64,000 bases of DNA. It comes from Cellulomonas rhizosphaerae (GTDB lineage Bacteria; Actinomycetota; Actinomycetes; Actinomycetales; Cellulomonadaceae). Below, in pieces: positions 33,021 through 52,736 of the stretch. The notes beneath the pieces are model-generated. The model saw only the letters and a list, made by a program, of their open reading frames with translations. It ran no database searches and was not told the origin of the DNA. Position numbers and translations under genes: made by a program. The stretch covers positions 1 through 64,000 of the forward strand of contig NZ_QWKP01000221.1 of NCBI RefSeq assembly GCF_003470205.1, written 5' to 3'. Each line of letters begins with the position of its first letter. Positions within the stretch are counted from its first letter, which is position 1.

Positions 33021-34544
33021 TCAGGACACGTCGTCGTCGACCCAGTCGAAGGTCTTCGTCACGGCCTTCTTCCACAGCCGGTACTGACGGTCGCGCTCGT
33101 CGTCCTCCATGGACGGCTCCCAGCGCTTGTCCTCGGCCCAGTTGTCGATGACGTCCTGCTCGCCGGACCAGAACCCGACCGCGATGCCGGCCGCGTAGGC
33201 GGCGCCGAGCGCGGTGGTCTCGGCGACCTTCGGCCGGACGACCGGGACGCCGAGGATGTCGGCCTGGAACTGCATGAGCAGCTCGTCCTGGACCATGCCG
33301 CCGTCGACCTTGAGCTCGGTGAGGTCCACGCCCGAGTCGGCGTTCATGGCGTCGAGCACCTCGCGGGTCTGGAAGGCCGTGGCCTCCAGGGCGGCCCGCG
33401 CGATGTGGCCCTTGTTGACGAACCGGGTGAGCCCGACGAGCGCACCGCGGGCGTCCGAGCGCCAGTACGGCGCGAACAGGCCCGAGAACGCGGGCACGAA
33501 GTACGCACCGCCGTTGTCGTCGACCGTCTTCGCGAGCTCCTCGATCTCCGGGGCGGAGGAGATGATGCCCAGGTTGTCGCGCAGCCACTGCACCAACGAG
33601 CCCGAGACGGCGATCGAGCCCTCGAGCGCGTAGACGGCGTCCTGGTCGCCGATCTTGTAGCAGACCGTCGTCAGCAGGCCGTTCTTCGACGGGATCGGCT
33701 TCGTGCCCGTGTTGAGGAGCATGAAGTTTCCGGTGCCGTAGGTGTTCTTGGCGTGGCCCACCTCGAAGCAGGCCTGGCCGAACGTGGCCGCCTGCTGGTC
33801 GCCGAGGATGCCCGCGATGGGGACGCCGGCCAGGAGGCCGCCCTCGCGGCCGTTGCCGTAGACCTCGGACGACGAGCGGATCTCCGGGAGCATCGAGAGG
33901 GGGATGCCCATCTCGCCGGCGATCTCCTCGTTCCACGAGAGCGTGTCGAGGTTCATCAGCATGGTGCGCGACGCGTTGGTCACGTCAGTGACGTGGATGC
34001 CGCCCTCGACACCACCCGTCATGTTCCACAGCACCCACGAGTCGGTGTTGCCGAACGCCAGGTCGCCGGCCTCCGCTGCCTCGCGGGCGCCGTCGACGTT
34101 GTCGAGGATCCAGCGCACCTTCGGACCGGAGAAGTAGGTGGCCAGGGGGAGGCCGACCTTCTCCTTGTAGCGGTCCGCGCCGCCGCCGAGCGCACCGAGC
34201 TCGTCGGCGATCTTCTGCGTGCGCGTGTCCTGCCACACGATCGCGTTGTAGACCGGCTCGCCGGTCTTGCGGTTCCAGACGACCGCGGTCTCGCGCTGGT
34301 TCGTGATCCCGACCGCGACGATGTTGCGCGCCGTGAGGTTGGCCTTGGTCAGGGCCAGGCCGACGACCTCGCGGACGTTGACCCAGATCTCCGCGGCGTC
34401 GTGCTCCACCCAGCCGGCGCGCGGGAAGATCTGCTCGTGCTCCTTCTGCCCGGTCGCGACGATCTGTCCGCCGTGGTCGAAGATGATCGCCCGGCTGCTG
34501 GTCGTGCCCTGGTCGATCGCGAGGACGTACTTGCTGTCCGCCAT
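33021..34544 (-). CDS. glpK: Glycerol kinase
   Basis: A 507-residue FGGY-family kinase that converts glycerol to glycerol 3-phosphate with ATP. Motifs: [15 protein letters not shown] (phosphate-1), [18 protein letters not shown], the substrate loop [10 protein letters not shown], and the FGGY signature [25 protein letters not shown] followed by [21 protein letters not shown]. Full length. It is the last gene of the glpD-glpF-glpK set; a hairpin at 34579-34620 separates it from glpF, so its level may be set independently. Confidence 0.97.
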
Positions 34545-34578
34545 GGTGGCTTCCTCCGTGTGAATGGTCTGCTGGGGG

Positions 34579-34620
34579 CCGGACGAGCCGCGCGGCTGCC
34601 CTGCGGCGCGGCCCGTCCGG
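34579..34620. terminator. Hairpin between glpF and glpK
   Basis: CCGGACGAGCCGCGC (34579-34593) pairs with 34606-34620 over 15 bp with one G-T mismatch and a 12-base loop. It lies 29 bases past the glpF stop and ~35 bases before glpK, so it may terminate or attenuate. Confidence 0.8.
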
Positions 34621-34648
34621 GTCGATCAGTGGTGCGGGTGCGAGCGGG

Positions 34649-35413
34649 TCAGAACACGTACGCGTTGGCCAGGAGACCGGCGAGCACGCCACCGACGATC
34701 GGGCCGAGCACGGGGACCCAGGAGTAGGCCCAGTCGCTGCCGCCCTTGCCCTTGATGGGCAGGACGAAGTGCGCGATGCGCGGGCCGAGGTCACGTGCAG
34801 GGTTGATCGCGTAGCCGGTGGGACCACCGAGCGAGGCGCCGATGCCGACCACGAGCAGTGCGACCGCGAGCGGCCCGAGACCCGAGGGCGTCCCCCCGAA
34901 CGCCAGGACCACGAAGACCAGCACGAACGTCGCGATGACCTCGGTGACGAAGTTCCACGCGTAGGAGCGCAGCTCCGGGCCGGTGGAGAACACGGCCAGC
35001 TTGATGCCGGGCTCGGCGTCCTCGTCGAAGTGCTTCTTGTAGGCCAGGAACGCGAGGACGGCACCGATGAACGCGCCGATCATCTGGGCCAGGAAGTACC
35101 AGAGCGCGTTGCCGAACGTCGGCAGGATCGATGCGGTGACGACACCGTTGGGACCGGTGACGCTGTAGAACGGCTGGTCGGACGTCCAGAGTCCGACGGT
35201 CACGGCCGGGTTGAGGTGCGCGCCCGACTTGAAGGCGACGTACACGCCGGCGAACACGGCAAGGCCCCAGCCGAAGTTGATGAGCAACCAGCCCCCACCG
35301 AAGCCCTTCGTCTTCGGCAGGATCACGTTCGCGACCACTCCGGCACCCATCAGGATCAGCATCGCTGTTCCCAGGATCTCGGAGACGAACGCGTGAGACA
35401 TCAGTGTGTTCAC
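34649..35413 (-). CDS. glpF: MIP-family aquaglyceroporin (glycerol facilitator)
   Basis: A 254-residue channel with six spans. The two NPA motifs are present in AHLNPAVTVG and AINPARDLGPRI; the Asp after the second NPAR is the marker of glycerol-conducting members. It should admit glycerol for GlpK. GTG 35413 (VNTLMSHAF) has AAGGGA at a 7-base spacing and is preferred to ATG 35401. Between glpD and this gene lies a short hairpin (35453-35473). Confidence 0.93.
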   Translation of the reverse strand: MNTLMSHAFVSEILGTAMLILMGAGVVANVILPKTKGFGGGWLLINFGWGLAVFAGVYVAFKSGAHLNPAVTVGLWTSDQPFYSVTGPNGVVTASILPTFGNALWYFLAQMIGAFIGAVLAFLAYKKHFDEDAEPGIKLAVFSTGPELRSYAWNFVTEVIATFVLVFVVLAFGGTPSGLGPLAVALLVVGIGASLGGPTGYAINPARDLGPRIAHFVLPIKGKGGSDWAYSWVPVLGPIVGGVLAGLLANAYVF

Positions 35414-35452
35414 TGAGCTATCCCTTCTGTACGGACGACGTTGTCACGTGCA

Positions 35453-35473
35453 CCCCGCGCACCGGGCGCGGGG
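35453..35473. terminator. Short hairpin between glpD and glpF
   Basis: CCCCGCGC (35453-35460), loop ACCGG, GCGCGGGG (35466-35473). It begins 10 bases after the glpD stop in the minus direction. Possible weak terminator or processing site within the glp operon. Confidence 0.5.
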
Positions 35474-35482
35474 GGTCTTTGG

Positions 35483-37294
35483 TCAGGTCCCTGCGGGCCC
35501 CGAGGTTCCCTTGCCGGCCGGCGAGCCGGGCTTCTCCCCGGCGCCGACGTGCTTGCCGAGGTCGCGCATCGGCGCGAGATCGGCGGCTTCGAGGCGGACC
35601 TGCTCGGCGCTCACGTCGTCGGGCTGGGCCGCCGCGGCGTCCTCCGCCTCGGCGCGTGAGCGGTAGGCCGCGATCTCGTCGGCGCGCGTCGTCGCGTCCC
35701 AGCCCAGGACCGGGGCGACGAGGTCCGCGATCTCCTCGAGCGCGCCCACGCCCTTGTCCGCCTGCTCGTAGTTGAGCCGCGTGCGGTGCATGAGGATGTC
35801 GTCCAGGTGCAGCGCGCCCTCGTGGCTGGCGGCGTAGACGACCTCGGCGCCGATGTAGGCGCTCGCGTGCTCGAGGGGCTTGGCCAGGTCCGGGTTGGCG
35901 TCGCACAGATCGATGAGCTCGCCGAGCAGCGACCCGTAGCGGTGCAGCAGGTGGTCCATGCGCGGGCGGTCCCAGTCGTACTTGGCGCCGATCGCGCGCG
36001 CCTGACGCTGGAAGACCCGCAGGCCCTCGGCGCCGACGAGCTGCACCTCGTGCGTGATCGACGGGAGCGACGTGGCACGCGAGCCGATCGCGAAGTCCAC
36101 CGCGTCCTTGGCCATCACGCGGTAGGTGGTCAGCTTGCCTCCCGCGATGACCGTCAGGCCCGGGGTGGGGGAGGCAACGGTGTGCTCGCGGGAGACCTTG
36201 GCCGACGAGGTGCCCTCCTTGGTGCCCGGCTGCAGCAGCGGTCGCAGGCCGGCCCACGTGCCGATGATGTCCTCGCGCGTGATCGGCCGGCTGAGCACCG
36301 CGTTGGCGTGCTCCATGACGTAGTCGATGTCCGCACTCGTGGCCACGGGGTGGGTGAGCTCCTGCTCCCACGGGGTGTCCGTGGTGCCGATGACCCAGTA
36401 GCGCGACCACGGGATGATGAACAGGACCGACTTCTCGGTCTGCAGGATCAGCCCCACGTCGCCGGCGATCCGCGAGCGCGGCACGACGATGTGGATCCCC
36501 TTGCTGGCCAGCACCTTGAGGCCGCCCTCGGAGCCCGCGAGCGACTCGGTCGCCTCGGTCCACACGCCCGTCGCGTTGATGACGTGCCGGGCCCGGACGT
36601 CGAAGTGCTCGCCCGTCTCGAGGTCGACGAGCTCGGCGCCGGTGACCGCGCCCCCGCTCGTCGTGTGCAGGTTGACGAGCTGCGTGCGGCTCGCGGCGTG
36701 CGCGCCGTAGCTCACGGCGGTGCGGACGAGGGTCTCGACGAGGCGCGCGTCGTCGACGCTCGCGTCCCAGTAGCGCACCGCGCCGATCGCGGCGTCGTGG
36801 CGCAGGTCGGGGAACAGGCGCTCCATGCCCTTGCGGGACAGGTGCCGGTGGATGGGCAGCGCGCGCTTGCCGCCGTTGACCGAGGCGAGCGTGTCGTACA
36901 GCGCGACGCCCGCGCCGACGTAGGCCCGCTCCCACACCCGGTTCTCGAGCGGGTAGAGGAAGCTGACGGGCTTGACCAGGTGGGGCGCGAGCCGGTTGAT
37001 GAGCAGGTCGCGCTCGGTCAGGGCCTCGCGCACCAGGTGGAAGTCGAGCATCTGCAGGTAGCGCAGGCCGCCGTGCACGAGCTTCGACGAGCGCGACGAC
37101 GTGCCGGACGCCCAGTCCTGGGCCTCGACGATGGCCGTCGAGAGCCCGCGCGTGACGGCGTCGACGGCGACTCCTGCGCCGGTGACGCCACCGCCGATCA
37201 CCAGCACGTCGAGCTCGTCCTCGCGAGCCGCGCTGCCGCGCAGGGCGGCGAGCGCGTCGGTCCGAGCCTGGGCGGTGAGCGGTGCGGTCCTCAT
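35483..37294 (-). CDS. glpD: Glycerol-3-phosphate dehydrogenase (FAD, aerobic)
   Basis: A 603-residue membrane-associated flavoprotein that oxidises glycerol 3-phosphate to dihydroxyacetone phosphate and passes electrons to quinone. Motifs: FAD-binding DVLVIGGGVTGAGVAVDA, SSKLVHGGLRYLQML, WSRYWVIGTTDTPWE, VIAGGKLTTYRVMAKDAVD, and the C-terminal helical domain. The last ~40 residues are a low-complexity tail. ATG 37294 follows GAGGAGAG. Divergent from the SorC-type regulator over 120 bases. Confidence 0.96.
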   Translation of the reverse strand: MRTAPLTAQARTDALAALRGSAAREDELDVLVIGGGVTGAGVAVDAVTRGLSTAIVEAQDWASGTSSRSSKLVHGGLRYLQMLDFHLVREALTERDLLINRLAPHLVKPVSFLYPLENRVWERAYVGAGVALYDTLASVNGGKRALPIHRHLSRKGMERLFPDLRHDAAIGAVRYWDASVDDARLVETLVRTAVSYGAHAASRTQLVNLHTTSGGAVTGAELVDLETGEHFDVRARHVINATGVWTEATESLAGSEGGLKVLASKGIHIVVPRSRIAGDVGLILQTEKSVLFIIPWSRYWVIGTTDTPWEQELTHPVATSADIDYVMEHANAVLSRPITREDIIGTWAGLRPLLQPGTKEGTSSAKVSREHTVASPTPGLTVIAGGKLTTYRVMAKDAVDFAIGSRATSLPSITHEVQLVGAEGLRVFQRQARAIGAKYDWDRPRMDHLLHRYGSLLGELIDLCDANPDLAKPLEHASAYIGAEVVYAASHEGALHLDDILMHRTRLNYEQADKGVGALEEIADLVAPVLGWDATTRADEIAAYRSRAEAEDAAAAQPDDVSAEQVRLEAADLAPMRDLGKHVGAGEKPGSPAGKGTSGPAGT

Positions 37295-38407: not shown

Positions 38408-41985
<3,578 letters not shown>

Positions 41986-41989
<4 letters not shown>

Positions 41990-42585
41990 CGGGTCACGAC
42001 CATCCGGACGGGCGTCGGGTCGAACCCGTTGCAGGGGTTGTTGATCTGCGGGCAGTTGCTGACGACGACGAGCACGTCGCGCTCGGCGCGCAGGGACAGC
42101 GACAGGCCGGGCGCGGAGATGCCGTCGACGATCCCGAGCGCGCCGTCCGGGTCCACGGGCACGTTCATGTACCAGTTGATGTTCGAGACCAGGTCGCGCT
42201 TGCCCAGGCCATGCCTGCCGCCCTCGACGAGGAAGTTCTCGACGCACGCGTGCTGCGCCCACGTGTGCTGGCCGTAGCGCAACGTGTTCGACTCCTTCGA
42301 GCACGCGCCGCCGAGGGTGTCGTGGCGCCCGACCTCGTCGGCGACGACCGTCATCAGCGGGCCGTACTCGCAGTCGCGCAGGATCGAGCCCGTGGTCAGG
42401 AACACGGAGTCCTGCCCCTGGATGGTGTCCGGCGCGCTGTAGCGCAGGCTCGGGTCGGCGGCGTCGAAGACGAGGAAGTCGACGGCCTGGTTGCCGCCGA
42501 GGTCGATGATCGTCAGCACCTCGCCCGCGTGGACCACCGCGGACCAGGGGGCGCGGGCGGGGACGACGGTGTCGATCAGGCTCAT
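41986..42585 (-). CDS. Urea amidolyase-associated protein UAAP2 (CgdB/CgdA-type deiminase subunit)
   Basis: A 199-residue member of the DUF1989/UAAP2 family: EVLTIIDLGGNQAVDFLVFDAADPSLRYS, the metal-site region GGACSKESNTLRYG and HACVENFLVEGGRHGLGKRDLVSNINWYMNVPVDPDG. UAAP pairs were shown to form carboxyguanidine deiminase, which makes allophanate from carboxyguanidine; here this is by homology. Coupled at both ends by ATGA overlaps with UAAP1 and the carboxylase. Confidence 0.88.
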
Positions 42586-43433
42586 GCGATCCCCCGGGCG
42601 GTGAGGTCGGTGACGGTGTTGACGAAGGCGCGGCGGCCCTCGGGGGTGGCGGTCCAGAGCTCGTCGGTGTCGGCCGTCGGCTCCCCGCGCCAGGCCACGA
42701 CCTCGAGCGGTGTGCTCGTGAACGGGCGCGGGTCGAGCGGGTGGGCCGTGTTCGCGACGAGCAGCAGCAGCGGCACCTCGGCGCGCAGCGTGATCGCGGC
42801 GCCCGCTCCGGCCGAGCCCTCGAACACCGGGCGCCCCTCGTCGTCGACGCGGACACCCTGGAAGAACGAGATGCTCGGCGGCAGGTCGCGGCGGGCCAGG
42901 TCGTGCTTCGCGGCGGCGAGGGCGAACAGCTCCCGGCCGGCCGGGCTCTCGCCGTGGGCGGCGCCGTCGCCGTAGCGCTCCTCGTTGCGCGCCCTCGTCG
43001 TCGTGCCGTACAGCGCGTCCTGGCGGCCGGAGGTGTCGCCGACGATGCTCGCCAGGACCCTGCCCTGGTCGCTGAGCAGCAGGTGCCCGGCCGTCAGGTA
43101 GACCTGCCACTGGACCTTGACCGTGTCCGCGACGTTGAGGCGCTCCCACGGGCGGTCGAGGCGGTAGGCCAGGACGTGAGCGCACGCGTCGCCGACCAGG
43201 TCCGTGAGCATGACGTGCGTGCCGCGCGCCACGGCGAGGTGCGTGTACCCGCCTCCCGCGACGACCTCGGCGTGCACCATCGCGGTGGCGTCGATCCCCT
43301 CGGGCGGGGCGGGCCAGGCGGAGGCGGGGCGGGTGGGTTGCGTGGGGGTCGCGTCGAGCGCGGCCGCCTCCTGGGCCCGGGCGTGGGCGCGTGCCCCGGC
43401 CGTGGTGCCGGTCCCCGTGCAGGTGGTCGTCAT
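42582..43433 (-). CDS. Urea amidolyase-associated protein UAAP1 (CgdA/CgdB-type deiminase subunit)
   Basis: A 283-residue DUF1989-type protein, first gene of the carboxylase operon. It has the paired domain signature GGGYTHLAVARGTHVMLTDL, ALYGTTTRARNEERYGDG, LPPSISFFQGVRVDDEGRPVF and a ~45-residue disordered N terminus rich in T and A. It is the partner of UAAP2. The palindrome TTTCTGTC-N4-GACAGAAA lies 12 bases upstream of its start, between it and the divergent TetR gene. Confidence 0.88.
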   Translation of the reverse strand: MTTTCTGTGTTAGARAHARAQEAAALDATPTQPTRPASAWPAPPEGIDATAMVHAEVVAGGGYTHLAVARGTHVMLTDLVGDACAHVLAYRLDRPWERLNVADTVKVQWQVYLTAGHLLLSDQGRVLASIVGDTSGRQDALYGTTTRARNEERYGDGAAHGESPAGRELFALAAAKHDLARRDLPPSISFFQGVRVDDEGRPVFEGSAGAGAAITLRAEVPLLLLVANTAHPLDPRPFTSTPLEVVAWRGEPTADTDELWTATPEGRRAFVNTVTDLTARGIA

Positions 43434-44178: not shown

Positions 44179-44297
44179 TCGGGCGGGCGCGGGTCGCGCG
44201 CGCGGGGGCGCGGGTGACGCGAGTGCTGCAGGCGCGGATTTAACACAAGCGTTTCGTGCGCGCCTCCGGCCCGACACGGCTCGGGTGGTCAATGAAC

Positions 44298-44311
44298 CTG
44301 TCGGCCGACAG
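44298..44311. promoter_or_regulatory. Second CTGTC-N4-GACAG operator before the symporter
   Basis: CTGTCGGCCGACAG, followed by AAAC, is a perfect 14-bp palindrome with the same half-site and spacing as 43445-43464. It lies 55 bases upstream of the symporter start. A partial GlnR-like pair (GAAAC-N6-GTTAA on the minus strand) is at 44240-44255. Confidence 0.75.
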
Positions 44312-44365
44312 AAACTCGGCCGCTTCGTCCGTCCCCCCTGGCCCGCCTCTCCCCTCGGAGCCTCC

Positions 44366-45883
44366 ATGATCATCGCCGGAGTCGGTCTGTCCGTCCTCGC
44401 CGTCGTCCTCGTCGGCATCTTCGTCGCGCGCAAGGTGGACGGCGACAGCGCCAACTACCTCGTCGCGGGCCGGCGCCTGGGGGTGCCGCTCGTCGCGGCC
44501 TCGCTCATGGCCGCGGCCGTCGACTCCAACGCGACGGTCGGCAACACCGACCTCACCGCGTCGTTCGGGTTCTGGGCCGGGGCGTCGCTCGCCCTCGGTC
44601 TGGCGCTGTGCCTGCTGCTCACGGGCCTGTTCCTGGCCAAGCCGATGAACCGCATGAAGCTGTTCACGCTCGCCGACTTCTACCGGCTGCGGTACGGGCG
44701 GGGCGTCGAGGTCGCGTCGTCGGTGTTCATGATCTTCGCGTTCGCGATCCTCATGGCCGGCAACCTCGTGGCCTGCGGGTTCCTGCTCGAGCGCTTCCTC
44801 GGCATCGACTACACCGTGGGCGTGCTCATCGCGGTCGGCCTCGTCCTGCTCTACACGATCGGCGGCGGCATGTTCTCCGACGCCTACACCGCGGCGATCC
44901 AGATCGTCATCACGATCGTCGCGACCGTCAGCCTCGTGATCTGGTTCGGCGTCACCTACGGGTTCCACGTCGACGAGGGCATGGGCCCGTTCGACCTCGA
45001 GCAGCTGACCCAGACCAGCGCCGGCGCGCCGATCAACTGGGCCACGCTCATCGCGCTCGGCATCGGCGACATCGTCGCGATCGACTTCATGCAGCGCATC
45101 TTCGCCGCGCGCAACCCCGAGACCGCCCGCCGGTCGTGCCTGACCGGCGCGGCGGGCACCGCCATCATCGGCGTCGCCTTCGCGATGGTCGCCCTGTCCG
45201 CCTCGTCGGTGCTCGGCCTGACGACGGACGCGGGCCCGATCCTGTTCCAGCTGCTCGACGACTACGCGCCCTCCGGCCTGACGGTGCTGGTGCTGTCCGG
45301 CATCGTGGCGGCGTCCTTCTCGACCGCCTCGGGCGCGATCCTCGCGACGTCGGCCGTGGCCGTGCGCAACATCTTCGGCGTCCGCCGCGTGGTGTCCGCG
45401 AAGGAGGAGGGCGTCCGCGACCCGCTGCTGCTGTGGACGCGCGTCGCGATGGTCCCGATCGTCGCGCTCGGCATCACGATCGCGCTCAAGGTCGCCCAGA
45501 CCGGCATCCTGCTCACGCTCGCGTTCGACCTCATGCTCGCAGGCCTCCTCGTGCCGTTCATCCTCGGCCTGTTCTGGAAGCGCGGCGGCACCCGCGCGGC
45601 CGTCGCGGCGCTGTCGATCGGCGTCGGCGTGCGGATCGTGCTGTTCGTCCTGACGCCCACGATCTACGGCGTGCCGAACGACGTCTGGTACATCCCGAAC
45701 ACGCTGGTCGACGCCTCGTTCGACGGCTGGCCGACGTTCTGGGCGTTCGGCGCCTCGATCGTCGCGTACGTCGTCGCCGCCGCGATCTGGCCGCGCAGCG
45801 TCACCGAGGAGGCGTGGGCGATCGCCGACGGCATGCCCGACGAGACCGCCCCCGCTCCTCGGGAGCCGGAGCCCGCTCTCTGA
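44366..45883 (+). CDS. Sodium:solute symporter family transporter
   Basis: A 505-residue SSS-family permease with about 13 spans: start MIIAGVGLSVLAVVLVGIFV, the NYLVAGRRLGVPLVAASLMA signature and VAIDFMQRIFAARNPETARR. The usual Na2-site region is around VAASFSTASGAILATSAVAV. By position and shared operator it probably imports the substrate of the carboxylase (urea or guanidine). ATG 44366 is preferred to the longer frame at 44285, whose extra residues run through the operator; CGGAG precedes it. A hairpin follows the stop. Confidence 0.88.
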   Translation: MIIAGVGLSVLAVVLVGIFVARKVDGDSANYLVAGRRLGVPLVAASLMAAAVDSNATVGNTDLTASFGFWAGASLALGLALCLLLTGLFLAKPMNRMKLFTLADFYRLRYGRGVEVASSVFMIFAFAILMAGNLVACGFLLERFLGIDYTVGVLIAVGLVLLYTIGGGMFSDAYTAAIQIVITIVATVSLVIWFGVTYGFHVDEGMGPFDLEQLTQTSAGAPINWATLIALGIGDIVAIDFMQRIFAARNPETARRSCLTGAAGTAIIGVAFAMVALSASSVLGLTTDAGPILFQLLDDYAPSGLTVLVLSGIVAASFSTASGAILATSAVAVRNIFGVRRVVSAKEEGVRDPLLLWTRVAMVPIVALGITIALKVAQTGILLTLAFDLMLAGLLVPFILGLFWKRGGTRAAVAALSIGVGVRIVLFVLTPTIYGVPNDVWYIPNTLVDASFDGWPTFWAFGASIVAYVVAAAIWPRSVTEEAWAIADGMPDETAPAPREPEPAL

Positions 45884-48804: not shown

Positions 48805-49884
48805 TCAGACGTACCGCTCGAGGATCGACGACTCGGCCAGGCGGGAGAGTCCTTCGCGCACCGCGCGGGCCCGCTGCTCGCCCACGCCGTCGACGGCCAT
48901 GAGGTCGTCGATGCCTGCGGCGAGCAGCTTCTGCAGGCCGCCGAAGTGGGCGACGAGGCGGTCGACGATCGCACCCGGCAGGCGGGGCACCTTCGACAGC
49001 AGCCGGTAGCCGCGCGGACCGGCGGCCGCGTCGAGCGCGTCGCCCCCGCCCGGCAGTCCGAGCACGCGCGCGATGTGCGCGATGTCGAGCAGCTCGGTCG
49101 AGTCCAGCTCGGCGAGCTCGGCCTGCACGGAGTCGAGGTCGCGGCGGATGGTGTCGACGTAGTCGCGGATGACGAGCTCGCGGTCCGAGCCGATGCCGCC
49201 CACGAGCTCGTCGAGCTGCAGCGTGAGCAGGCGGCCGTCGGTGCCGAGCTCGACGACGTAGCCCTCGATCTCCTCGGAGATGCGCCGCACCATCTCGAGT
49301 CGCTGGACGACGGCGGACACGTCCCGGACCGTGACGAGGTCCTCGATCTCGAGCGCGGAGAGCGTGCCGCTGACCTCGTCGAGGCGCGACTTGTAGCGCT
49401 CGAGCGTGGCGAGGGCCTGGTTGGCGCGGGACAGGATGGTCGTCGAGCCCTCGAGCACGTACCGCTGGTCGCCGACGTACAGCGCGATGATCCGCATCGA
49501 GGCGGACACCGAGATCACGGGCAGGCCGGTCTGCTTGGCGACGCGCTCGGCGGTGCGGTGGCGCGTGCCGGACTCGGTGGTCTCGATCGTCACGTCGGGC
49601 AGCAGCTGCACGGCCGCACGGACGATCTTGGAGATGTCCTGGTCGACGACGACGGCACCGTCCATCTTGGCCAGCTCGCGCAGGCGGGTCGCCGAGAACT
49701 CCACGTCGAGGACGAAGCCGCCCGAGCAGATGGACTCGACCGTCTTGTCGAAGCCGAGGACGATCAGCGCGCCGGTCCGTCCGCGCAGGATCCGCTCGAG
49801 CCCGTCCCGCAGGTCGCCGCCGGGCGCGACGGCAGCGAGGGTCGACCGCATGAGGTCGTCGGGGGCGTGCGGGGTGTTCGGCAC
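48805..49884 (-). CDS. disA: DNA integrity scanning diadenylate cyclase
   Basis: A 359-residue enzyme making the second messenger c-di-AMP while scanning DNA for branched structures. DAC domain (~1-150) with [10 protein letters not shown] and RHRTAER, the two catalytic motifs, a helical spine, and a C-terminal helix-hairpin-helix ([26 protein letters not shown]). GTG 49884 ([11 protein letters not shown]) gives family-typical length. In many actinobacteria disA follows radA directly; here a methyltransferase gene and a small gene lie between them. Confidence 0.95.
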
Positions 49885-49973
49885 GCGAGCATCGTAACGA
49901 CGCCCGGCGACGCAGCGGGCATGCGACCCGCGACGAGGCGGTCGAACTCCGGACATCTGACGGAGCCGGCCGC

Positions 49974-50795
49974 CTATGACGGGCCGCGGACCCCGAGCGT
50001 GTAGCGGACCTCCTGGGCCAGGGCGAGGTGGCCCGACGGGTCGGTGATCGACGCCGCGAGCTCCAGGATCCGGGCGCGCATGGCGTCGTGCTCGTCGGCC
50101 GGGACCGCGTCCCACATGGCCCGTTGGCCGTGGGACTGCGTGAACGCCACGAGATGCTCGGGGTTGCGGAACACGGCCTCCACGGTGCGGGTCACGGTCC
50201 GGATCGCCGTCAGACCGGCGCCGACGAAGAGGTCCGCCATGCCCGCGTCGGACGCGAAGGGGCCGCTGCGCCCGCTGGTCCGGGCGTCGAGCAGGGCGGG
50301 CGGCAGGTAGGAAAAGAAGAGCTCGTCGACCCGCCGCCACCGCTCGTCCTGGGCTCCGAACGTCGTCGTCCCGAGGCGACCGCCGTGGACGACGAGCGAC
50401 GCCCACACGCTCAGCGTCGCTGCGGGATCGGGCATGAAGAACAGCACCAGCGACGCCGACACCACGTCGAACGAGGCCGCCGCGAAGTCGGGCGCGCGGG
50501 CGTCGCCCACGGCGACCGTGACCTGCGGGAGGTCGGCGAGGTCGCGCGCGGTCAGCTCCACCATGCGGGGGGCGAGGTCGATGCCGACGGCCCGCCCGTC
50601 GGGGCCGGTCGCGAGCGCGAGCGGGCGCAGCGCGGCGCCACGGCCGCAGCCGATGTCGAGCACGCTCTCGCCGGGTCGCACGGCGAGCTCGTCGACCAGC
50701 CCGGCGGCGATCGGCTCGAACCACGGGACGCCCACGGCGTCGTAGGTGTCGGCGACGCGGTCGAAGATCCCGGCCGGCCCGTCGGGGTGTGCCAT
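49974..50795 (-). CDS. SAM-dependent class I methyltransferase
   Basis: A 273-residue protein with a UbiE/type-11-like Rossmann fold: motif [19 protein letters not shown], acidic residue in [13 protein letters not shown], motif II-like [13 protein letters not shown] and post-motif [16 protein letters not shown]-terminal cap domain (~170-273) suggests a small-molecule substrate, not determined. ATG 50795 ([11 protein letters not shown]) is chosen over upstream frame 50867. It precedes disA by 89 bases with no obvious feature between. Confidence 0.85.
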
Positions 50796-50920
50796 CGACC
50801 CACCCTCGCACCGGCGCCGGGGGCGAACAAGGGCTCTCGGCGGGCGGGACCGGCCCGCGGGGCGCACATTGAAGTGCGCTCACACCCGGGGCGCCGGTTT
50901 CGAGACAGAGGAAGTACACG

Positions 50921-51106
50921 ATGAGCACCGACAGCGGCCACGGCACCCCCGACGTCCTCGACGACGGCGCGACCTCGCGCGTCGTCGAGGGCGAGACCAC
51001 GACCCATGAGCACCACGAGCACCACGAGCACCACGAGCACGGCAAGCACGAGGTCCTCGACGACGGCGAGACGTCCGAGGTCGTCGAGGGCGACGAAGCC
51101 CCCTGA
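50921..51106 (+). CDS. Small histidine-rich protein with duplicated motif
   Basis: A 61-residue acidic protein. Two copies of a 14-15-residue motif ([14 protein letters not shown] and [14 protein letters not shown]) flank the histidine run [16 protein letters not shown] at residues 29-44. Such runs bind Ni or Zn, but no known family is recognised. GAGGAAG precedes ATG 50921, and a perfect 15-bp hairpin lies just after the stop, supporting a real gene. A palindrome GCGCAC-N6-GTGCGC is 42 bases upstream (50862-50879) and may be an operator. Confidence 0.7.
51007..51050 (+). repeat. CAC/GAG trinucleotide-type repeat encoding the His/Glu run
   Basis: CACGAGCAC units of nine bases repeat about four times within the small gene. 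Tandem slippage probably expanded it. Confidence 0.75.
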
Positions 51107-51109
51107 CCC

Positions 51110-51147
51110 GCGGACCGGGCGGCCACGCACGCGGCCGCCCGGTCCGC
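51110..51147. terminator. Hairpin terminator after the histidine-rich gene
   Basis: A perfect 15-bp stem (GCGGACCGGGCGGCC with 51133-51147) around an 8-base loop, 3 bases after the stop. About 110 bases of featureless sequence then lead to the radA stop. Confidence 0.85.
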
Positions 51148-51257: not shown

Positions 51258-52679
51258 TCAGCCCCGGCGGATCGGCACCACGTTGTCCGTCATGTTCGCC
51301 ACCTGCACGGCCCGAGCCAGGTCGGACGCCCCGAGCACGGTCATCCCCTTCGGCACCGCCAACCCGGCCACGGACGCGTGCGGCACGATCGCGCGGGTGA
51401 ACCCGAGCCGCGCGGCCTCGGCCAGGCGGCGGCCCACGCCGGACACGTTCCGGATCTCCCCGGCCAGGCCCACCTCGCCGATGGCCACGAGCCCGCGCGG
51501 CAGCGAGGTGTTCTCCCGCGATCCGACCGCGGCCAGCGCGAGCGCGAGGTCGGCGGAGGGTTCGACGACGCGCGCGCCGCCGACGGTGGAGACGTAGACG
51601 TCCTGGTCGGCAAGCCGGGCGCCGAGCCGGCGCTGCAGGACCGCGAGCACCATCGCCAGGCGGGAGGAGTCGACGCCGCTCGTCGTGCGGCGGGGGTTGG
51701 GCACCTGCGAGGGGGCGACGAGCGCCTGGATCTCGGTGGCCAGCGGGCGGCGGCCCTCGAGCGTGACGGTGAGGCAGGTTCCCGGCACGGGGTTGTGCGA
51801 CTGGGACATGAACAGGCCGGAGGGGTCGGCGAGGCCGACGATGCCCTGCTCGGACAGGTCGAAGCAGCCGACCTCGTCGGTGGGGCCGTAGCGGTTCTTG
51901 GTGGCGCGGAGCATCCGCAGGCGCGAGTGGCGGTCGCCCTCGAACTGGCAGACCACGTCCACCAGGTGCTCGAGCGTGCGCGGGCCGGCGACCGAGCCGT
52001 CCTTGGTGACGTGGCCGACCAGCACCACGGGCATGTCCCGGGACTTGGCGGCCTGGATCACCGCCGCGCTGACCTCACGGACCTGCGCGACGCCGCCTGC
52101 CGTGCCCTCGATCGCCGCGGAGGCGATCGTCTGGACCGAGTCGAGGACGAACAGGTCCGGGTCGACCTGCTCGATGTGGCCGAGGACCGTCGCGAGGTCG
52201 GTCTCGTCGGCGATCAGCAGGTTCGGGTCGAGCGCGCCGATCCGGCCCGCGCGCAGCCGGATCTGGGCGACGGACTCCTCGCCCGTCACGTACAGGACCC
52301 GGCGACCTCCGCGGGCGGTGCGTGCCGCGACGTCGAGCAGCAGGGTCGACTTGCCGACGCCCGGCTCGCCCGCGAGCAGCACCACGGCCCCGGGCACGAG
52401 GCCCCCGCCGAGCACGCGGTCCAGCTCGTCGACCCCGGTGGCGCGCGCGAGCGCGGACTCGACCGAGATCTCGCTGATCGGGCGAGCGGGTGCGCGGGTC
52501 GGGGCGGCCGCGACCGTCTTGGGGGCGCCGCCACCCGGGCCGGAGTCCTCGAGGACGGTTCCCCACGCCTGGCACTCGCCGCACCGGCCGGCCCACTTGG
52601 CGGCGGTCCACCCGCACTCGGTGCAGCGGAAGCCGGGGCGCGCGGCCTTCTCGGCGCGACGGGCGGCGGTGGTGCTCAT
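51258..52679 (-). CDS. radA: DNA repair protein RadA (Sms)
   Basis: A 473-residue RecA-related branch-migration ATPase of recombinational repair. N-terminal zinc finger [25 protein letters not shown], Walker [16 protein letters not shown], Walker [11 protein letters not shown], the RadA-specific [15 protein letters not shown] motif, and a C-terminal Lon protease-like domain ([35 protein letters not shown]). ATG 52679 ([11 protein letters not shown]) gives the usual length; the frame extends to 52709. Divergent from the TetR gene over 92 bases. Confidence 0.95.
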
Positions 52680-52736
52680 GTCCCGGACGGTAGCCGCCGA
52701 CACCGACACGACCGGGCTCGGCGCTCCGGGCGCGCC

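Follow-up and report, generated by a model that had tools for sequence, protein, structure and literature searches.

What could a protein of only 61 residues do that carries one short acidic motif twice, with a run of histidines and glutamates in between? In the window (the whole 64,000-nucleotide stretch of Cellulomonas rhizosphaerae DNA that was analysed), such a protein is encoded at 50921..51106 on the + strand, by 61 codons and a stop. A first-pass annotation, made from the sequence alone, had the position, length and sequence of this open reading frame right, and proposed that the product stores or chaperones nickel or zinc, or is a peptide precursor with repeated cores. To decide what the protein may do, we ask whether the gene is real, how far it is distributed, which part of it is conserved and what surrounds it.

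A tiny gene with an internal repeat

The motif VLDDGxTSxVVEG is present twice in the product, on either side of a histidine-glutamate spacer (51005..51040, +, residues 29-40) whose length varies and which is not conserved in the family. Unit 1 occupies 50951..50995 (+, residues 11-25) and unit 2 occupies 51050..51094 (+, residues 44-58); a unit profile scores them at E 6e-8 and 8e-8, respectively, values that include the unit itself in the profile. The duplicated acidic motif had been noticed in the first-pass annotation, and it bears scrutiny: the two units are identical at 11 of 14 positions, and the best internal 13-mer self-match of the protein is 53, a score reached by none of 1000 shuffles (maximum 42), so the internal repeat is not due to chance. 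The gene also has its own ribosome-binding site, as had been annotated, a purine-rich AGAGGAAG at 50907..50914 (+) read from the sequence, and a purine-rich site precedes the ATG in all five members of the family described below. An artefact of overlapping frames was rejected, as the homology falls in this frame and the alignment with the homologue of Cellulomonas sp. PhB150 weakens past the stop codon; a one-strain artefact is ruled out by homologues in four other genomes. The open reading frame is real, a genuine tiny protein gene.

A small family within Cellulomonas

How far does this gene reach? The first-pass annotation had called for short homologues and had staked its reading on conservation beyond this strain: there are four, in genomes that are each described as a different species. 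Among 58 relatives, the window protein has one clear homologue, in PhB150 (G031, E 6e-27), a protein of 58 residues whose HEH repeat spans nine residues as against twelve in the window; of the four matches at E <= 0.01, those in G026 (0.0011) and G008 (0.0073) are weak and were not counted. The homologue in G063 (113 aa) has three units and spacer repeats of the HRHDADVTG type, and lies upstream of a methyltransferase gene. A search with this protein reached the homologue in G002 (60 aa, two units), which lies between disA and the methyltransferase gene. With a profile of these four members, all at the disA-radA locus, a fifth was reached in G072 (118 aa, three units), at a different locus, next to a LacI-type regulator gene. 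A very hydrophobic 51-aa protein without a Pfam match is encoded divergently from the G072 repeat gene (L110 1967-2119, +).

Within the genus, 5 of 81 genomes carry the small gene (member E <= 2.3e-10), the remaining 27 of the 32 genomes with a match at E <= 0.5 not being counted (best 0.0046). At the family level, a first profile matched 72 of 200 sampled genomes at E <= 1, four of them members, and a later one matched 94 of 221 at E <= 0.3, recovering the same five carriers, with the 89 others set aside (best 0.0013). Overlapping samples of 396 order, 396 phylum and 394 class genomes yielded no additional recognisable member: the order search with the G063 protein matched 152 of 396 genomes at E <= 0.1, with only G063, G031, G002 and G000, the genome that contains the window, counted, while G000 alone was counted in the phylum search (13 of 396 at E <= 0.05) and in the class search (9 of 394 at E <= 0.01). 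The repeated unit was absent from the 14 weak-match translations inspected; other weak matches were dropped on score alone and the first pass of some searches scored only part of the candidates, and a distant or single-unit relative could be missed. A mobile origin was also considered and rejected: the window protein had no match in plasmids (E <= 1) and the G063 protein none in phages (E <= 1), and of 67 viral-contig stretches that matched the peptide pattern, none was confirmed.

The first-pass annotation knew of no described family, and Pfam, NCBIfam, PHROGs and PDB sequences bear this out. There is no match above the curated cut-off in Pfam or NCBIfam and no convincing one in PHROGs; the best family-library matches are at chance level (Hirudin E 0.13, EutK E 0.08, MelC1 E 0.13, geopeptide E 0.75), as is the best phage-family match (a phage tail family, E 0.32), and the one weak match among PDB sequences (phosphomethylpyrimidine kinase, E 0.052) is taken as chance. 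A literature search over listings and abstract openings found no paper on the small repeat gene. By these comparisons, the gene belongs to a small orphan family, restricted so far to a few Cellulomonas and unmatched in the family libraries searched.

A fixed unit and free spacers

Which part of the protein does the family keep? The nine units of four species align gap-free with V, L, D, G, T and E invariant, and a profile of these nine recovers the three left-out G072 units (E 2e-7, 8e-6 and 5e-4), in which the same six residues are invariant. The pattern VLD[DEH]GxT[AS]xxxE fits all 12 units, at two or three copies per protein, and was found only in the loci of the five member genomes among 160 loci scanned. 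Unit paralogues elsewhere in these five genomes were sought with the nine-unit profile and rejected, no second unit-bearing locus scoring better than E 0.33. Outside the unit, the five members (58-118 aa) can hardly be aligned. The histidine tract is 12 residues long in the window and 9 in its sister species PhB150, gives way to HRHDADVTG repeats in G063 and is missing from G002, and the histidine content follows suit: 10/61 in the window, 8/58 in PhB150, 9/113 in G063, 8/116 in G072, where the histidines mostly lie ahead of the first unit, and 1/60 in G002. Because the units align and the spacers hardly do, the alignment identifies the two acidic motifs as the conserved element and the histidine tract as an unstable spacer.

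The second G002 unit is furthest from the consensus (DVAESG). There are signs of homogenisation among the units: the window and PhB150 have TS in each of their four units, as against TA in the other eight, and DEG occurs in both G002 units. The likeness of units within a species could thus partly reflect duplication and homogenisation and not selection for docking. Positions are partly kept too, since residue six is A, E, D, R or H in the first units and E in all seven later ones. All five proteins are acidic (pI 4.05-4.58) and lack Cys; W, F and Y are absent from four of them, and G072 has two such residues. An AlphaFold2 model from a five-row alignment has a mean pLDDT of 59, a pTM of 0.11 and no secondary structure, which, together with the composition, fits a disordered chain without proving disorder.

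Selection on the gene can be gauged from the window and PhB150: of 58 codons, 11 differ, 6 of them with and 5 without a change of amino acid. The resulting values (dN 0.053, dS 0.145, dN/dS about 0.37) suggest modest purifying selection, an estimate that rests on few changes. The dS of the small gene is lower than that of the methyltransferase (0.40) and RadA (0.31), and 84 bases of its 3' part are identical (window 51013-51096, L005 3084-3167), whereas the neighbouring genes of the two genomes differ at 21-28% of third codon positions; this identity and the low synonymous change may reflect chance, conversion or extra constraint. The RadA proteins of the member species are up to 15% different. 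A RadA tree was built from the 30 best of 80 genomes with a RadA match and rooted at the midpoint only; in it, the four disA-radA carriers group together (97/94 support) and G072 falls outside their clade, so that the presence label needs two changes. From this tree we therefore place the gene, probably, in the ancestor of the four disA-radA species, and read the G072 copy as either a transfer or an older copy lost elsewhere.

The surroundings of the gene

In the window, the small gene is divergent from the methyltransferase gene (49977-50795, minus strand; Methyltransf_25, E 3.6e-16, longer start scanned), beyond which lies disA (48808-49890, minus strand, with DAC and DisA-linker domains), and convergent with radA (51261-52706, minus strand; TIGR00416, E 2.9e-153). 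disA and the methyltransferase gene adjoin the small gene in all four disA-radA members. Could the methyltransferase be a linked maturation enzyme, as the first-pass annotation had suggested? The enzyme is generic, with Methyltransf_25 as its best match and a weak PCMT match (1.4e-6), its gene is unlinked to the small gene in G072, and 8 of the 13 genus genomes that contain it (of 81, E <= 1e-30) are without the small gene, all of which speaks against the suggestion. All five small-gene genomes do have the methyltransferase gene, but this co-occurrence is weak evidence of a link, because four of them form one clade and the fifth has the two genes unlinked.

PhB150 and G063 have about 8 kb between the small gene and radA that are missing from the window. 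In PhB150, this segment opens with a ROK-family gene (ROK_glcA_fam E 2.5e-18, NagC E 5.4e-14, both below the curated cut-offs) whose product looks like a regulator. Within the segment, an inverted repeat GGTAAC-N6-GTTACC lies 3' of the small gene (L005 3249-3266 and L038 2792-2813), preceding the ROK-family gene in PhB150, and is followed at both loci by a near-identical GTTAGGAAANTTACCTATTAGTTTGACGG stretch; repeat and stretch are probably the promoter and operator of the ROK-family gene. A neighbouring ABC-transporter ATPase was identified (ABC_tran, E 5.2e-23), and the in-frame translation of the permease-like gene beside it gave no domain match.

Upstream of the small gene, the palindrome seen in the first-pass annotation is present as GCGCAC-ATTGAA-GTGCGC (50862-50879, no strand assigned), within a stretch that can be aligned in all four disA-radA members. 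Its arms match exactly in three members, as GCGCAC/GTGCGC in the window and PhB150 and as GCACGC/GCGTGC in G063, and poorly in G002; we regard it as a candidate operator or leader hairpin. The upstream stretch aligns even in G002, where disA is the diverging gene, which hints that some of this sequence goes with the small gene, bearing in mind that GC-rich alignments flatter similarity. A conserved RNA structure in this region is not supported, because folding is clearly better than that of shuffles in the window only (z -3.3, compared with -1.4 in PhB150, 0.9 in G063 and -0.8 in G002). Nor does the region seem to be an element common to other genes: a 130-base query found matches (E <= 1) in each of the 81 genomes, and it was matched over its length only in the window (8.6e-63) and G031 (4.8e-26), the next matches (G006 3.1e-6, G070 5.9e-6, G028 2.2e-5) covering only 31-61 GC-rich bases.

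Downstream, the terminator of the first-pass annotation survives in part. There is a hairpin at 51110..51147 (+) with a perfect 15-bp stem (-39.5 kcal/mol, z -5.2); it is not a canonical intrinsic terminator, since no T-run follows. Strong 3' hairpins of unlike sequence are found in the window, PhB150 (z -5.4) and G002 (z -3.5), while that of G063 is weaker (z -2.8) and consists of an inverted repeat that could instead be part of the next gene. The sequence read after the 3' hairpins of these four members has no T-run.

What the protein may do

Disordered proteins with repeated linear docking motifs exist as a general kind, and the Cellulomonas proteins resemble them in their conserved short unit, variable spacers, acidity and lack of a predicted fold. 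They differ in that they are unmatched in Pfam, NCBIfam and PHROGs and that their partner is only postulated. Our preferred reading, to which we give a probability of roughly 0.4, is that of a young, lineage-restricted, intrinsically disordered acidic protein with a repeated, multivalent docking motif for some partner. The working part would be VLD[DEH]GxT[AS]xxxE in two or three copies, with spacers that are free to change. Each unit would dock onto one site of the partner protein, possibly pairing as a short strand, and two or three copies on a flexible chain would allow multivalent binding, by which the partner is bridged or crowded. In the lineage of the window, the spacer would have become a short HEH repeat with an added affinity for Zn(II), Ni(II) or Cu(II), by which docking might be tied to metal, a feature weaker or absent in other members. 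We infer disorder, docking, multivalency and metal binding alike, and prefer docking as the best fit to a short fixed unit, to free spacers and to the two or three copies: every member has at least two conserved short units and unconserved spacers, as a repeated linear-motif scaffold should. The case is tempered by the AlphaFold model, whose low confidence on five rows is no proof of disorder, and, as only two gene positions are known, guilt by association offers no guidance. A more specific version, that each unit is a docking site switched by phosphorylation, is a long shot. Here, a Ser/Thr kinase would phosphorylate the invariant Thr, to which an FHA domain would then bind, making the protein a two- or three-valent phospho-scaffold, tuned by metal in lineages with a histidine spacer. 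The unit Thr has acidic residues before it and, at the third position that follows, Val, Ile, Asp or Glu, which would suit the preferences of such a kinase and of FHA domains.

Against docking stands the view that there is no settled function at all: the gene would be young or in decay, with little selection on it, and its repeats would persist by duplication. Its presence in 5 of 81 genus genomes, with no further member recognised among 221 family genomes, would fit, as would copy number and spacers in flux and the divergent second unit of G002. Yet six residues are invariant over 12 units in species with the RadA divergence given above, every member has a ribosome site and the four disA-radA members can be aligned upstream of the gene as well, which makes this view rather unlikely. 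To our knowledge, the repeated acidic unit has no counterpart in Hpn and Hpn-2, the nickel-storage proteins of Helicobacter, which we set apart by description and not by sequence comparison. On the model of Hpn, a metal-buffering protein would bind Ni, Zn or Cu through its histidine-rich spacer and be kept soluble by the acidic units. The HEH-spaced histidines of the window protein, the histidine counts of PhB150, G063 (with its HRHDAD repeats) and G072, and the small size, histidine-richness and genus restriction that Hpn likewise has, going by excerpts of PMC3856676, all speak for such metal buffering. The same excerpts put the histidine content of Hpn at 47% and that of Hpn-2 at 25%, compared with 16% (10 of 61) in the window protein and nearly none in one homologue (PMC3856676). 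His-richness is not kept across orthologues, with 8-10 histidines in four members and one in G002, which retains both units all the same; the tract is not of equal length in sister species, and none of the neighbours identified (disA, the methyltransferase gene and radA, and the ROK-family gene in PhB150) is a metal gene. Metal buffering is thus improbable as the function of the family, and the nickel or zinc storage of the first-pass annotation is at most a lineage-specific extra, because the spacers differ freely and G002 has almost no histidine.

The second proposal of that annotation, a peptide precursor with repeated cores, stands as far as the repeated unit is conserved and fares badly as a RiPP. 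A multi-core precursor, in which the unit is the core and Thr is cross-linked to Asp or Glu, or Asp-Gly is methylated to aspartimide, would account for a Thr ringed by acidic residues in a short, repetitive protein, much as in multi-core graspetide (omega-ester) precursors, and for the adjacent methyltransferase gene in all four disA-radA members. But the graspetide ATP-grasp model TIGR04187, the only one used, found nothing in the five member genomes (E <= 0.001), a result of undemonstrated power that may hide a miss, as none of 14 control genomes passed the cut-off and 7 of 14 gave sub-cut-off matches. There is also hardly any leader, with a first unit that starts at residue 11-12 in three members (PhB150, G002 and the window itself), at 19 in G063 and at about 42 in G072, and no GG precedes unit 1 in any of the five members, cleavage sites other than GG being possible. 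None of 32 neighbouring window translations, some of them alternative or wrong frames, is a RiPP maturation enzyme by Pfam (20 of 32 matched some family), and the ATP-grasp-type domain seen in the window, CPSase_L_D2, is part of a urea carboxylase-like enzyme. With a methyltransferase that is generic and separable from the small gene besides, we hold a RiPP precursor to be highly unlikely.

Whatever its function, this is a very small protein gene in which a short repeat stays fixed while everything between changes, in a few related genomes, and so offers a compact case for how bacterial linear motifs arise and multiply. It also carries a warning: a run of histidines that stands out in a single genome need not reveal what the family as a whole does.

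Other gene clusters in the window

The urea carboxylase-like gene mentioned above encodes a biotin-dependent multidomain protein (38411-42856, -) and stands beside genes for a DUF1989 protein and a sodium:solute symporter (41989-42600, -, and 44285-45880, +), a set whose domains point, possibly, to nickel-free urea use. A second group of genes looks like a cluster for glycerol uptake and use: at 33024-36935 (-) and in the vicinity, FGGY kinase, MIP channel and alpha-glycerophosphate oxidase-type domains adjoin one another, accompanied on the opposite strand by a regulator with a sugar-binding domain.
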